Positions 42,783-47,893 of a stretch of 64,000 nt of DNA are shown here, one piece after another. The stretch comes from Anaerolineaceae bacterium. Its GTDB lineage: Bacteria; Chloroflexota; Anaerolineae; Aggregatilineales; Phototrophicaceae. Location: assembly GCA_002699585.1 (NCBI GenBank), contig PABP01000036.1, positions 188,333-252,332 of the forward strand. The letters run 5' to 3'. Position 1 is the first letter of the stretch, and every line of letters begins with the position of its first letter. Below the pieces are notes generated by a model. It was not told the DNA's origin. It did not search any database and saw only the letters and a program-made list of their open reading frames with translations. Made by a program: the position numbers and the translations under genes.

Positions 42783-44792
42783 CTAGTCGGTACCGCGCAG
42801 GCGTGGGTCGAGCGCATCACGCAGACCATCACCCAGGAAGTTGAAGGCGAACATGATAATGAACAGCGCCAGCGCCGGGAAGAGCGCCTCGTGCGGGTAA
42901 TTACGCAGCACGGCAGCACCATCACTAATCATATTACCCCAACTGGGCGTCGGGGCGTTCACACCCAGGCCGATGAAGCTCAAGAAGGCTTCGTAGCGAA
43001 TGTAGGTCGGGATAGACAACGTTTCGCTGATGACGATCGGCCCCAGGATGTTGGGCAGAATATGACGCATCATAATCTGCGGGGTGGATTGGCCCAAAGC
43101 AGTCGCCGCTGTGACGTATTCTGTTTCCCTGGCGGATAGCACCTGACCGCGCGTGATACGCGCCAAGCGCATCCAGGAGGTCAAACCAATGCCCAGGAAG
43201 ATAAAGAATACGCCGCCGGTCGCTCGGTCAATCGCCCCCATCTGGAAGATAAACGTCCCTGGCTGCGTCGAGGCCGCACTACTGCGGAAGAAAGCCATCA
43301 GTAGGATAATCAGCAGCAGCGCCGGGAAAGCATACATCAGGTCGACAAAGCGCATCATCCAGTTATCGACAGCGCCACCAAAATAGCCACTGATGAGGCC
43401 ATAAGGCATGCCGACGAGGATACTCACCAACGGGCCGATGAAGGCCGCTAACAGCGAGACACGCGCACCGTAAACAATACGCGACCACATATCACGGCCC
43501 AGGTAATCCGCACCCAGAGGGTATTCATTACGCAGCGGTGTATAGCCGGAACTGGTCGGCAGGACCAACAGTTCGCTATCGGTGACATACACTGTGCCCT
43601 GGACGTTGGCTGTTACATCATCGGCCAATGGCTCGCCGATGGAAACAACCTGCTCGTCCATCACATGGATAACGGAATTGTCACTGAGTTCGTAGCGCTG
43701 TACGGTCGATGGCGTCAGAACGACATCATCACCCTCAACGAACACGGTGCCGTCCATATTGGCGAAGACATTGCGATTGCTGACATCCACCAGTTGATCG
43801 CCAGCGGCCACAATCTGGCCATCACTAACCGATAGGCCACCGTCGGATTGTAACCATTGTTCGGTCTGGCGAATGATGATTTCGTCTTCAGCGATGAAGG
43901 CATCGCCCGTGATCGGCGCGGTCACATCGTCGAACAGGGTTTCCCCTTGTAAGACTTCGCGACCATCACGAATCTCGATTTCAGCGCCTTCCGGTACGTC
44001 AACACGAGCCGGGTCAATCAGCGCCAATTCGACATTGTTGCGCGTTACAAAGATGGTGCCACCAAAGGGGGCAACAATTTCATCACCATCTTCCATGATG
44101 AGCAGCACATCACCTGCTTCAACTGTTTGCAGGTTTTCTACCTGGACGTCGCCATTGCTGCGCCGCCAAACTGTTTCTGGCTGCAAGATCACTTCATTGC
44201 CGACCACATGCACGATGCCATCGTAAGGTGCGGTGGTATCGCCAAAGAGCGTATCGCCAGCCATGACATCGTCGAGGTTGCTAACCGATAGGCGCGTGCT
44301 GTCGGTGATGTCAAAACGCGCCACCTCGATGGTATCCGGGACCAGATAGAAGCGTCGGTCATCAATGAAGACTGTACCGCCGACGCTGGCTGCCAGATTA
44401 TCGACTGAGAAATCAACCAGTAGGTCGCCTTCGCTGACTTGCTGCCCGGTCTCAACCAGGATTTCGCCATCAGAAGCGTCAAATGTTTCATCACGCGCTT
44501 TGAGGATCGGGAACAGATTAATGACCCAGGCAGGGGCCGCATTGGCCTCTTCCGTGTTCTGGTCGTCGATACCCTCGACAGCGACCACTGGCGCGAAGAT
44601 GGCCAGCAGCATATTGATGATGATGAGAACCAGACCGACTACTGCCAAGCGATTGCGCGATAGACGATACCAGGCATCGGCCCAGTACCCCTTCGACCCA
44701 GATGAAGTGGGGTCATCGAGAAGAGCAACCTCATTGCTGTTGTCGTTCTCTGGTGTTGTCGTCACATTGTTTGTCACGTCAGTTTCTCCCAC
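42783..44792 (-). CDS. DppC/OppC-type ABC permease with a six-repeat extracytoplasmic insert
   Basis: The 669-residue protein is a dipeptide/oligopeptide permease. A first helix lies at about 49-70, and the core runs from about 424 (PLGADYLGRDMWSRIVYGARVSL) to the end, with the EAA-type loop EYVTAATALGQS. Usual members have about 300 residues. The extra length is residues 109-412, six tandem units of about 50 residues, each with V..GD.L followed about 15 residues later by GTVF(V/I). The pattern resembles barrel-sandwich (biotinyl/lipoyl or RNA polymerase beta-prime hammerhead-like) folds. It would lie outside the membrane, where the binding protein docks. GTG 44792 overlaps the DppB stop by one base; a GTG five codons in has GGGAG upstream. 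Confidence 0.8.
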   Translation of the reverse strand: MGETDVTNNVTTTPENDNSNEVALLDDPTSSGSKGYWADAWYRLSRNRLAVVGLVLIIINMLLAIFAPVVAVEGIDDQNTEEANAAPAWVINLFPILKARDETFDASDGEILVETGQQVSEGDLLVDFSVDNLAASVGGTVFIDDRRFYLVPDTIEVARFDITDSTRLSVSNLDDVMAGDTLFGDTTAPYDGIVHVVGNEVILQPETVWRRSNGDVQVENLQTVEAGDVLLIMEDGDEIVAPFGGTIFVTRNNVELALIDPARVDVPEGAEIEIRDGREVLQGETLFDDVTAPITGDAFIAEDEIIIRQTEQWLQSDGGLSVSDGQIVAAGDQLVDVSNRNVFANMDGTVFVEGDDVVLTPSTVQRYELSDNSVIHVMDEQVVSIGEPLADDVTANVQGTVYVTDSELLVLPTSSGYTPLRNEYPLGADYLGRDMWSRIVYGARVSLLAAFIGPLVSILVGMPYGLISGYFGGAVDNWMMRFVDLMYAFPALLLIILLMAFFRSSAASTQPGTFIFQMGAIDRATGGVFFIFLGIGLTSWMRLARITRGQVLSARETEYVTAATALGQSTPQIMMRHILPNILGPIVISETLSIPTYIRYEAFLSFIGLGVNAPTPSWGNMISDGAAVLRNYPHEALFPALALFIIMFAFNFLGDGLRDALDPRLRGTD

Positions 44793-45802
44793 TAGTCATA
44801 CCGGATACGAGGATCAAGCCAGCCGTAAGAAATATCGACAATCGTGTTGGCCAACACCAACGCGAATGCGAACAGCAGCGTAGTCCCCATAATTAACGTA
44901 TAGTCTCGGTTGCCGATACTCTGGACATAAGCGCGGCCAATGCCCGGAACGGCGAAGATTTGCTCAGTGACGAAGGACCCTGTCACCAGGAAGGCCGTAA
45001 TTGGCCCCAAAACGGTGACAACGGGAATCATGCCGTTTTTAAGGACGTGCATCCACAGAATACGGCGGCTGCCCAGGCCCTTGGCGCGGGCTGTACGGAT
45101 GTAATCCTCATTAAGCACCTGGAGCAAGCTGGCGCGCGTCAGACGGGCGATAATGGCCGCCTGGGCAAACCCCAGCGTGAAGGCTGGCATAATGAGATGA
45201 GAAAGTGTCCCCCAGCCAGAGATGGGTAATAACTTTAGCTCGACACCAAAGACATATTGCATCAGCGGGCCGAGCGTAATAGCCGTCACGGAGACGCCTA
45301 CGGTCGCGATGCCCATACCGAGATAATCCCATACGGTATTGCGATTGAGTGCTGCCAGGATGCCCGCTGGCAAACCGATCACCAGGGCAACAATAATCGC
45401 TGCCACACCCAGTTGCACGGTCACACCCAGGTTCTCGCGGAACATATCAGTCACACTGCGGCTGCGAACCACCAGCGAGGGGCCAAAGTTCATCCAGCGC
45501 AGGGTACTTTCCCCGCCGGGCAGGTCAAGCGCAAACAGATAATCTTCTGATGTGCTGCGTGGCGGCCCCGGTTCAGTGACCGTTGGCAAGATGATTTGAC
45601 CGATGTAACGGGCATACTGCACCAACAACGGATCATCCAGACCATATCTTGCTTCAATATTTTCTTTGACAGAGTCTGGGAAATCGCGCTCACGATCAAA
45701 TGGACCACCCGGTACAGCGCGCATCAAGAAAAACGTAACCAGTGATACGACGAACAATACCAAGATCATCCATAGAATGCGGCGGGCGATAAACCTACCC
45801 AT
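44792..45802 (-). CDS. DppB/OppB-type ABC transporter permease
   Basis: The 336-residue protein has the standard DppB layout: IARRILWMILVLFVVSLVTFFLMRAVPGGPFD at the start, and the EAA loop RTARAKGLGSRRILWMHVLKN near residue 245. It forms the heterodimeric channel with the DppC-like protein downstream. An insertion around residues 75-100 is longer than usual. A strong AGGAGG lies before ATG 45802. Two short inverted repeats precede it. Confidence 0.9.
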   Translation of the reverse strand: MGRFIARRILWMILVLFVVSLVTFFLMRAVPGGPFDRERDFPDSVKENIEARYGLDDPLLVQYARYIGQIILPTVTEPGPPRSTSEDYLFALDLPGGESTLRWMNFGPSLVVRSRSVTDMFRENLGVTVQLGVAAIIVALVIGLPAGILAALNRNTVWDYLGMGIATVGVSVTAITLGPLMQYVFGVELKLLPISGWGTLSHLIMPAFTLGFAQAAIIARLTRASLLQVLNEDYIRTARAKGLGSRRILWMHVLKNGMIPVVTVLGPITAFLVTGSFVTEQIFAVPGIGRAYVQSIGNRDYTLIMGTTLLFAFALVLANTIVDISYGWLDPRIRYD

Positions 45803-46174: not shown

Positions 46175-47893
46175 TTAGCGATTCAGGCTCCAGTTTTCGT
46201 ACTGTTCTGAGTTGTCGACCGCGTAGGTGCGCTCAACATATGGCTTGGTCAGTTCGAGGTCGCTGTACCAGTAAATCGGGATGATAGCAGCATCTTCGTA
46301 GACCAGGATTTGTTCGGCTTCTGCGTACAGCTCAGCGCGAACGTCGGCATCAGTCTCAGCAATGGCTTCTTCGACCAGTGCGTCGAAGGCCGGGCTGGCC
46401 CAACCGGTGTCGTTGTTGGCGCTGGTTGAGTGGAAGACGTCGAACAGGAAGTTGTTGGTGTCAGGATAGTCGAAGCACCAGCCTGCACGCCAAACCGGGA
46501 ATTCAGGACGCTGATCGAGATAAACGCCGAAGTCCTGGTTGGTCAACTGAACTTCAATACCAAGCAGGTCTGACCACTGATCGCGGATAGCTTCTGCGAT
46601 ACGGCGGTGGCCTTCACTGGTGTTGTAAAGCAGGGTGATTGGCGGCAGTTCGTCGACGCTGCTCAGGCCCATGTCTTCCAGGGCGATATCGAGTTCTTCG
46701 ATAGCTGCATCGGGATCGTAGCCAATACCGTAGCCAAGGTCATCCATCGCTTCCGGCTGCGGGGCAGCGGCGAGGCTCGGCAGGGTGAAGTAGGTTGCCG
46801 GTGTCTGGCCACCCTGGGTGACTTCGTCAACGATCTGCTGGCGATCAACGGCGAAGCTGAAGGCACGACGCAGGTTGACGTTGTCCATCGGGGCAACGCC
46901 GGTACCGAAACCATAGTAGTAGGAGCAGGAACCGTCTTCGATGACCAGTTCTTCGCTCAGGGTCGGGTCCGCCTGGATACGCGGGATGGAAGCACTGTCG
47001 ACATCATCGACGTCGTCCAGGTTACCAGCTTCGTATTCAGCCAGTGCGGTCACGCTGTCAAGCATGTTGAAGACCACGCCATCGAGGGCCGGCTGCGGGT
47101 TGTTGTCGGTGCCGGGCCAGAACGGGTTCTTGATGATGCTGATGAATTCGTCGTGGTTCCACTCCCAGAGGGCGAAAGGACCATAGCTGACGAAGTTTTC
47201 GGGTTCAATCCACAGTTCACCAGCTTCTTCGATTGCCCACTGCGGCTGCGGGCGAGCCATCCACATGCCGTAGATTGTCGGCTGTGTTTCTTTCGGTGCA
47301 TCGGTGGTTACAGCAAAGGTGTATTCGTCAACAGCTTCAAAGCCGAGGACGCTGCTGTCCACTGCCAGTGAACCATCTTCGCCAACTTCTTGGCCATTGT
47401 ATTCGGTACCGCCCAGAACTTCCGGGACCAGCACATAAGCATAGTCGCCAGCAGTGACGGGGCTCAGGGTACGTTCCCAGCCATAAGCCAGATCAAAGGC
47501 GTTGACGTAGCGGACGTTACCATCGGCATCGAGAACTTCTTCGACTTCGCCGGATTCCGCATTGTATTTGACCCACGGGATGCCTTCGCGCAGGGTGAAG
47601 GTCCAGGTGGAGGTACCGTCACCGTTATCGGTCAGTTCCCAGCTTTCGGCCAAACCCGGCTCAGTCGAGGCGGTTTCGTCGTCCAGCATGGTGAGGCCAA
47701 TATAAGTTTCATTCAAAATTTGGATTGATGAGCTGTCCGTTGCCAGCGCCGGATCGAGGGTCGGCACATCGCTAGGACCAATTTCGGTTTGAAGGACGTT
47801 GTCCATCATATCCTGGGCAGATGTAACGCCCAGCGCGACCACGAGCAATGAAACCATTGCTACCAGGCCGAGAGTACGAATCACTCGTTGCAT
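46175..47893 (-). CDS. Peptide ABC transporter substrate-binding protein (SBP family 5)
   Basis: The 572-residue protein has a signal peptide (TLGLVAMVSLLVVALGVTSAQ) with no lipobox cysteine, then the family 5 pattern: DVPTLDPALATDSSSIQILNETYIGL, the GLAESWELTDNGDGTSTWTF opening and an FSFAVDRQQIVDEV helix in the second half. It captures oligopeptides or other ligands for the adjacent DppBC permeases. No ATPase genes are adjacent. AGGAG precedes the ATG. It is separated from the permeases by 372 bases with a terminator. Confidence 0.9.
   Translation of the reverse strand: MQRVIRTLGLVAMVSLLVVALGVTSAQDMMDNVLQTEIGPSDVPTLDPALATDSSSIQILNETYIGLTMLDDETASTEPGLAESWELTDNGDGTSTWTFTLREGIPWVKYNAESGEVEEVLDADGNVRYVNAFDLAYGWERTLSPVTAGDYAYVLVPEVLGGTEYNGQEVGEDGSLAVDSSVLGFEAVDEYTFAVTTDAPKETQPTIYGMWMARPQPQWAIEEAGELWIEPENFVSYGPFALWEWNHDEFISIIKNPFWPGTDNNPQPALDGVVFNMLDSVTALAEYEAGNLDDVDDVDSASIPRIQADPTLSEELVIEDGSCSYYYGFGTGVAPMDNVNLRRAFSFAVDRQQIVDEVTQGGQTPATYFTLPSLAAAPQPEAMDDLGYGIGYDPDAAIEELDIALEDMGLSSVDELPPITLLYNTSEGHRRIAEAIRDQWSDLLGIEVQLTNQDFGVYLDQRPEFPVWRAGWCFDYPDTNNFLFDVFHSTSANNDTGWASPAFDALVEEAIAETDADVRAELYAEAEQILVYEDAAIIPIYWYSDLELTKPYVERTYAVDNSEQYENWSLNR

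Follow-up and report, generated by a model that had tools for sequence, protein, structure and literature searches.

The permease gene and its operon

The window, that is, the whole stretch of 64,000 nucleotides that was analyzed, holds a gene for an OppC/DppC-type permease at positions 42783..44792 (-). The open reading frame begins with a GTG start codon, encodes a protein of 669 aa, and matches PF12911 and PF00528, with OppC_N aligning to residues 36–87 (E 7.6e-15; 55 bits against a cut-off of 23.9) and BPD_transp_1 to residues 461–666 (E 3.1e-31; 109 bits against a cut-off of 26.4). Genes for both partners of an OppC/DppC permease adjoin it: an OppB/DppB-type permease of 336 aa lies directly upstream (44792..45802 (-); PF00528 and PF19300), and an OppA/DppA-type solute-binding protein (SBP) of the SBP_bac_5 family, 572 aa in length, is encoded at 46175..47893 (-) (PF00496). 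No ATPase gene adjoining the permease was seen by eye among the ORFs of the window or of the relatives’ operons listed. The permease falls below the cut-off of all 25 NCBIfam models listed, the best being Opp3C (280 versus 450 bits); Opp4C is likewise under its curated cut-off (274 versus 350 bits), and the top NCBIfam match of the OppB partner, Opp3B, is under that model’s cut-off as well. Judged from its sequence, the gene encodes the OppC-type subunit of an ABC importer of the A-B-C peptide kind, with peptide as the presumed substrate at the level of the family.

Peptide importers of the OppC/DppC class are usually regarded as having uniform cores of two permeases. The window permease resembles the solved DppC and OppC subunits of E. 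coli (8z1v–8z1z, 8z21) and M. tuberculosis (8wd9, 8j5q) in its OppC_N helix and its core, is 32–42% identical to them over nearly the whole solved chain, and is like them in having adjacent genes for an OppB partner and an SBP. Unlike the solved chains, of which 273–289 residues align and which have no such array, it carries a large insert. OppC and DppC of E. coli cover only residues 32–89 and 421–666 of the window permease, with ~310 residues extra. A first-pass annotation of this DNA had put the insert at residues 109–412; the best boundaries are slightly wider, at residues 105–414 (43551..44480 (-)). Before the insert, residues 1–104 (44481..44792 (-)) comprise the N-terminus, TM1 (OppC_N), and a short helix that runs to ‘..FPILKARDETF’, the N-boundary of the insert. 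Behind it, residues 415–669 and the stop codon (42783..43550 (-)) comprise ‘SGYTPLRNEYPLGADYLGRD’ and the permease core (BPD_transp_1).

Such an architecture could be an artefact of a chimeric assembly, a frameshift, or a misread gene, and the window genome is indeed a 42-contig assembly. Against this, the frame is uninterrupted, GC content is continuous along the gene (0.54 at the N-terminus, 0.54 in the insert, and 0.57 in the core), and G001, a genome of the same genus in a single contig of 5,631,885 bp, has the same architecture. Since G001 carries the same six repeat units as the window permease, an assembly error is very unlikely, and we give artefacts of any of these kinds practically no weight.

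The window SBP has a signal peptide without a lipobox cysteine, as judged by eye. Among 28 OppA signal peptides from the window and loci L083–L146, likewise judged by eye, 26 have an AQ-type cleavage site and no lipobox cysteine; for the remaining two N-termini (G039 and G108), the visible sequence stopped short of the cleavage site.

The repeat array and its relatives

Six tandem units had been described in the insert at first pass, and as repeats they are well borne out, scoring 52.7 on average when aligned pairwise, versus 13.7 ± 1.4 in 500 shuffles (z = 27). Their independence is not. Units an even distance apart score 58–92 and those an odd distance apart 25–59, so that the true repeat is an A+B pair of ~103 aa present in three copies, and the alternation A-B-A-B-A-B makes up three two-hairpin domains. 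These three tandem pairs, which resemble the sandwich-barrel hybrid motif (SBHM), span residues 105–208 (units 1 and 2; 44169..44480 (-)), residues 209–311 (units 3 and 4; 43860..44168 (-)), and residues 312–414 (units 5 and 6; 43551..43859 (-)). Within the window protein, the pairs are 29–36% identical to each other, while each shares 55–74% identity with its positional counterpart in G001. Since same-position pairs are closer between the two genomes than pairs are within the protein, the triplication predates the split of both species.

A full-length AlphaFold2 model from 40 aligned sequences has a mean pLDDT of 86.8. All ten-residue blocks of the insert except two exceed a pLDDT of 70 in this model, in agreement with the earlier view that the units are folded, and residues 101–120 and 341–420 reach 92–97. 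The high confidence over these last stretches may be partly alignment-driven, as single-copy relatives are set against just those parts. The insert modeled alone is weaker (mean pLDDT 71.0, pTM 0.37). Superposition on E. coli DppC (8z1w_B) matches 282 of its 282 residues (Z 31.6, rmsd 1.7), and since every E. coli residue is matched around the insert, the permease core is complete. The DppC/OppC alignment, the model, and the structure match all uphold the original placement of the insert, after the first helix and ahead of the core; by homology, this is the TM1–TM2 loop, on the extracytoplasmic side. The modeled array may consist of three sequential domains or of a membrane-proximal composite domain that holds two distal ones, and both arrangements stand because two alignments disagree on which later segment corresponds to the first hairpin.

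A profile built from eight A-B pairs (A1) was used in sequence searches. Against PDB sequences, its top match was the insert of the β′ subunit of Taq RNA polymerase (RNAP), 2auj, with a whole-chain E of 1.9e-8 that is the sum of three weak stretches (best i-Evalue 0.026); cyanobacterial Si3 (8emb) came next (E 1.5e-6), and then NusG (0.0024) and biotin carboxylase (0.0043). At E ≤ 0.01 in the window genome, the profile matched only its own permease and a single frame of 1529 aa (E 7.2e-8), which is rpoC. Profile–profile alignment of the insert with 33 Anaerolineae β′ segments by hhalign gave a probability of 99.3 over 77 columns at 29% identity, in a sample that is biased, having been picked by the profile itself as its top matches together with the window genome’s own segment. 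The β′ matches were mostly called rpoC from frames of ~1410–1660 aa; 14 of the 33 segments were read and four proteins were checked with NCBIfam. Pfam RPOC_hybrid is not significant on the insert in five carriers (E 0.07–0.19).

Some shorter frames, of 332–849 aa, are also found among the insert-profile matches listed, in a scan of the best ≤12 candidates per genome. Weak SBHM-profile matches (E 0.001–0.009) were seen, too, in frames shorter than rpoC (366, 396, and 902 aa), the sites being G102:C36:13459-13653, G101:C126:5216-5395, and G031:C17:112141-112311.

When the predicted insert was compared with the PDB by Foldseek, all 48 of the 48 matches at E ≤ 0.001 came from RNAP entries (best 6.4e-6), either as β′-sized chains or as excised Si3 or β′ inserts. 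Whole-model TM-scores to RNAP are low (0.13–0.22), perhaps owing to a different or uncertain arrangement of the domains in the model. The best VIA match, in rows that cover well only model residues 1–217, was a chain of T. thermophilus RNAP, with 98 residues aligned at an rmsd of 4.1 (Z 9.9); local stretches of 48–51 residues fit at an rmsd of 0.9–1.1. NusG (Z 8.5) and Rnf/NqrA domains (Z about 7) follow close behind, so that fold by itself does not point to β′ in particular. By sequence profile, profile–profile comparison, and predicted fold together, the nearest relatives of the insert are the SBHMs of RNAP β′. In eight of eight carriers the domain sits in an OppC-type permease and not in an RNA polymerase.

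The first-pass annotation had likened the units to barrel-sandwich or lipoyl-like hairpins. The barrel-sandwich type stands, whereas the lipoyl affinity gives way to the nearer β′ SBHMs. Were the repeats biotinyl/lipoyl carrier domains, they would act as swinging arms for a cofactor, and Biotin_lipoyl_2 does align to residues 110–125 (E 6.6e-6), at 26.3 bits and under its cut-off of 29.8. The 310-residue insert has not one lysine to modify, and with its closest relatives among the β′ SBHMs, the carrier function was rejected as exceedingly improbable. Biotinyl/lipoyl domains, NusG domain 2, and the barrel-sandwich domains of RnfC/NqrA resemble the insert in general hairpin fold; it differs in having no modifiable lysine, and its match to them is weaker than that to β′. 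In one report, the SBHM is treated for RnfC and PduS (PMC1796856).

The likeness to the β′ arrays (2auj and Si3 8emb) extends from profile and predicted fold to general character, since both they and the window array are lineage-specific insertions of repeated SBHMs. In contrast, the window array occupies an extracytoplasmic loop of a transporter and the β′ SBHMs a transcription enzyme, with ~29% identity over the 77 columns. According to one account, SBHMs build lineage-specific RNAP insertions, with two in the Si3 of E. coli and eight in that of Thermosynechococcus, and some Si3 SBHMs are formed by distant chain segments (PMC10802570).

Scores of insert pairs against groups of β′ segments averaged 45–102, compared with 25–29 for shuffled sequences. 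Pair 1 of the window genome (G000) preferred other families of the class (102 versus 81), and the insert pair of G102 preferred its own order (88–99 versus 70). A recent capture from the window’s own rpoC is unsupported, own-family β′ not being steadily preferred in these pairwise scores. Descent from some Chloroflexota-type β′ SBHM is likely, and a shared ancient ancestry of the insert and the β′ SBHMs is possible. The insert is, in short, a known fold in an unexpected place on a known type of importer. In line with the earlier impression that it is undescribed, searches of the open-access literature found no SBHM array in an OppC/DppC permease, which is weak evidence of absence.

Distribution and history

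Within the order, the pair profile matches permease frames in eight of 154 genomes, all of them from the window’s family. SBHM copy number varies among the carriers: three in G000 and G001; one in G006, G024, G099, and G102; and one diverged copy each in G002 and G011. The G006 gene (G006:C173) is cut by a contig end soon after the insert, and G011 has two copies of the permease, one of 353 aa without the insert and one of 568 aa with it.

Scoring of the best ≤13 candidates per genome gave 60 orthologue rows in the order at ≥60% identity, the next row standing at 50%. Eight of these exceed 440 aa, namely G000, G001, G002, G024, G099, G102, and a further pair that hold other modules; another two rows are truncated, at 242 and 231 aa. 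The other 50 are frames of 344–417 aa, too short for the insert, which were read where the locus was fetched and otherwise judged from frame length. Reading of the longest such frames in the order (417, 394, 390, and 382 aa) found no insert. The carriers G011:C23 and G006:C173 lie lower in the orthologue list or outside it. With most orthologues of the order lacking room for it, the insert is an added domain in an otherwise ordinary importer, and the ‘new subtype’ suggested in the first-pass annotation was too strong a term.

In a broader sample of 396 genomes from the class, 91 match the permease core at E ≤ 1e-85. Beyond G000 and G001, three frames exceed 440 aa, all without the insert, among the best ≤6 candidates per genome with one reported for each; insert-bearing paralogues could be missed in this sample, as G011:C23 was. 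Among 400 genomes of the phylum, G000 alone passes at E ≤ 1e-12, a threshold too strict for copies that have diverged to the extent seen in G011 and G002.

Other modules occupy the same loop in two orthologues. The 763-aa OppC of G041 (L090:1712-4000 (-)) has SH3_3 repeats (E 2.7e-20) between TM1 and TM2, and the 474-aa OppC of G068:C78 (L121:495-1916 (-)) has a PPC-like beta domain there, the PPC match being weak (E 0.0017, below cut-off). G068 also holds an OppC copy without the PPC-like domain. Two further loci depart from the usual form. In G196:C24 (L153:1418-3481 (+)), a 688-aa frame reads as the N-terminal part of OppA joined in frame to the OppC core, which is either a genuine fusion by deletion or an error in assembling the MAG. 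At G047:C22:85106-86135, an OppC orthologue seems to be divided between two frames of 355 and 190 aa, perhaps through a frameshift. In this ordinary A-B-C peptide importer, the TM1–TM2 loop is a hot spot for extracytoplasmic insertions, and not the mark of a new transporter family.

Of the eight SBHM carriers, seven have the motif ‘(A/P)(R/K)DE’ just before the domain, and this suggests a single homologous insertion. On an OppC-core tree (50 rows, seven carriers), the insert label requires 3 changes versus a mean of 6.7 when shuffled, and on an OppB+OppC tree (30 rows, eight carriers, with G006 and G002 partly covered) 4 versus 7.1. Five carriers (G000, G001, G024, G099, and G102) cluster with support of 94/87; a single clade of all carriers is rejected on the OppB+OppC tree (p-AU 1.3e-4). 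One gain with several losses and repeated transfer both fit this pattern.

The main rival to a functional reading of the array starts from these same data. If the TM1–TM2 loop is simply tolerant, beta modules may land in it by recombination and persist as near-neutral ornaments or spacers, with no specific partner. Three types of module are found at this one loop, relatives carry 0, 1, or 3 SBHM copies, the carriers are patchy on the tree, and the insert has changed faster than the core, with identities of 66% and 92%, respectively, between G000 and G001. Set against this are signs of constraint: pN in the insert lies well under pS between these two genomes (0.233 versus 0.75, with synonymous sites saturated), omega is 0.215 between G099 and G102, on few changes, the triplet and its A-B periodicity are retained in both sampled genomes of the genus, and the V..G..L and hairpin glycine columns are invariant across eight pairs. 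From these substitution patterns, the insert is under purifying selection, looser than that on the core, and we regard a near-neutral ornament as rather unlikely. The identity of the insert and its evolutionary picture as given here are held with high confidence.

Possible roles of the array

Where the array sits, its retention, and the fact that other outer modules can stand in its place all point to an accessory surface outside the cytoplasm, and the occurrence of relatives with no copy, one copy, or other domains in the loop suggests a docking or sensing arm. In the reading that we tentatively prefer, an array of three RNAP β′-type SBHM domains has been acquired in the extracytoplasmic TM1–TM2 loop, where it would stand out from the membrane beside the transporter mouth, in a region pseudo-symmetric to the scoop motif between TM1 and TM2 of DppB. 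There it may be an additional arm that docks or retains the binding protein, in the manner of MalF P2; it carries no cofactor. Argued by analogy, this is the most likely role, although at somewhat less than even odds, and the entire explanation, array identity plus docking arm, is put forward just as guardedly.

Two known systems bear on the comparison. The closest working analogue is MalF P2 of the maltose importer, which like the window array lies outside the cytoplasm and belongs to a single permease subunit of a type I importer; its loop and fold differ from those of the OppC array, and contact with an SBP is what we propose for the window array. A title cited in one paper has MalF P2 interacting with MalE throughout the cycle (PMC3150292). 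For DppABCDF, a further source describes a scoop motif of DppB, between TM1 and α3, that enters and binds the cleft of DppA (PMC12136057).

Whether the insert always goes with the same binding protein had been raised in the first-pass annotation. The SBP gene neighbors the permease in 28 of the 30 operon loci read, with or without the insert, so no constant pairing of this kind emerges. Nor do signature residues indicate an insert-specific binding protein: the SBPs of insert operons (six rows) have eight, compared with a mean of 5.7 in clade-like controls, and 27.5% of 400 such sets reach eight. A co-variation signal in the SBP relative to random subsets (12 columns; mean 0.36, maximum 6) was erased by the clade-like controls, and OppB has no signature residues that co-vary with the insert. 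Loss of the lipobox was considered as a reason for an SBP-retaining arm and rejected, as lipobox-free SBPs occur in carriers and non-carriers alike. In addition, most orthologues are too short to hold the insert and the carriers are not one clade, a pattern expected of a dispensable part.

Electrostatics is a further consideration. The array is very acidic, with a net charge of −49 (residues 104–413) and a pI of 4.05, and the SBP has a net charge of −84. Since both are strongly acidic, direct contact is disfavored unless bridged or confined to patches. The same acidity would suit an array that acts as a sensor or capture module, binding a ligand, a glycan, or a cation and thereby gating the transporter or holding it to the envelope. 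SH3b and PPC domains are envelope- or partner-binding modules, and those found in the same loop are acidic too (net −45 and −14, respectively). No ligand site was found in the array, however, and its acidity is common to the SBP and may be a salt adaptation; a sensor or capture module is a distinctly improbable alternative to the docking arm.

The larger scenario is one in which an RNAP domain was exapted to the outer face of an importer and triplicated there, the loop being a modular slot that swaps SBHM, SH3b, and PPC modules. We offer it as a doubtful proposition. For the family, natural variants with 0, 1, and 3 copies are at hand for studying how an importer recruits its binding protein, a question that is sharper here as the SBP is seemingly without a lipid anchor. 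The array would be a case of an RNAP insertion module outside transcription, on the outer side of the membrane, and, if the modular slot is true, swaps of loop modules would alter the docking partners of the importer or what it senses.
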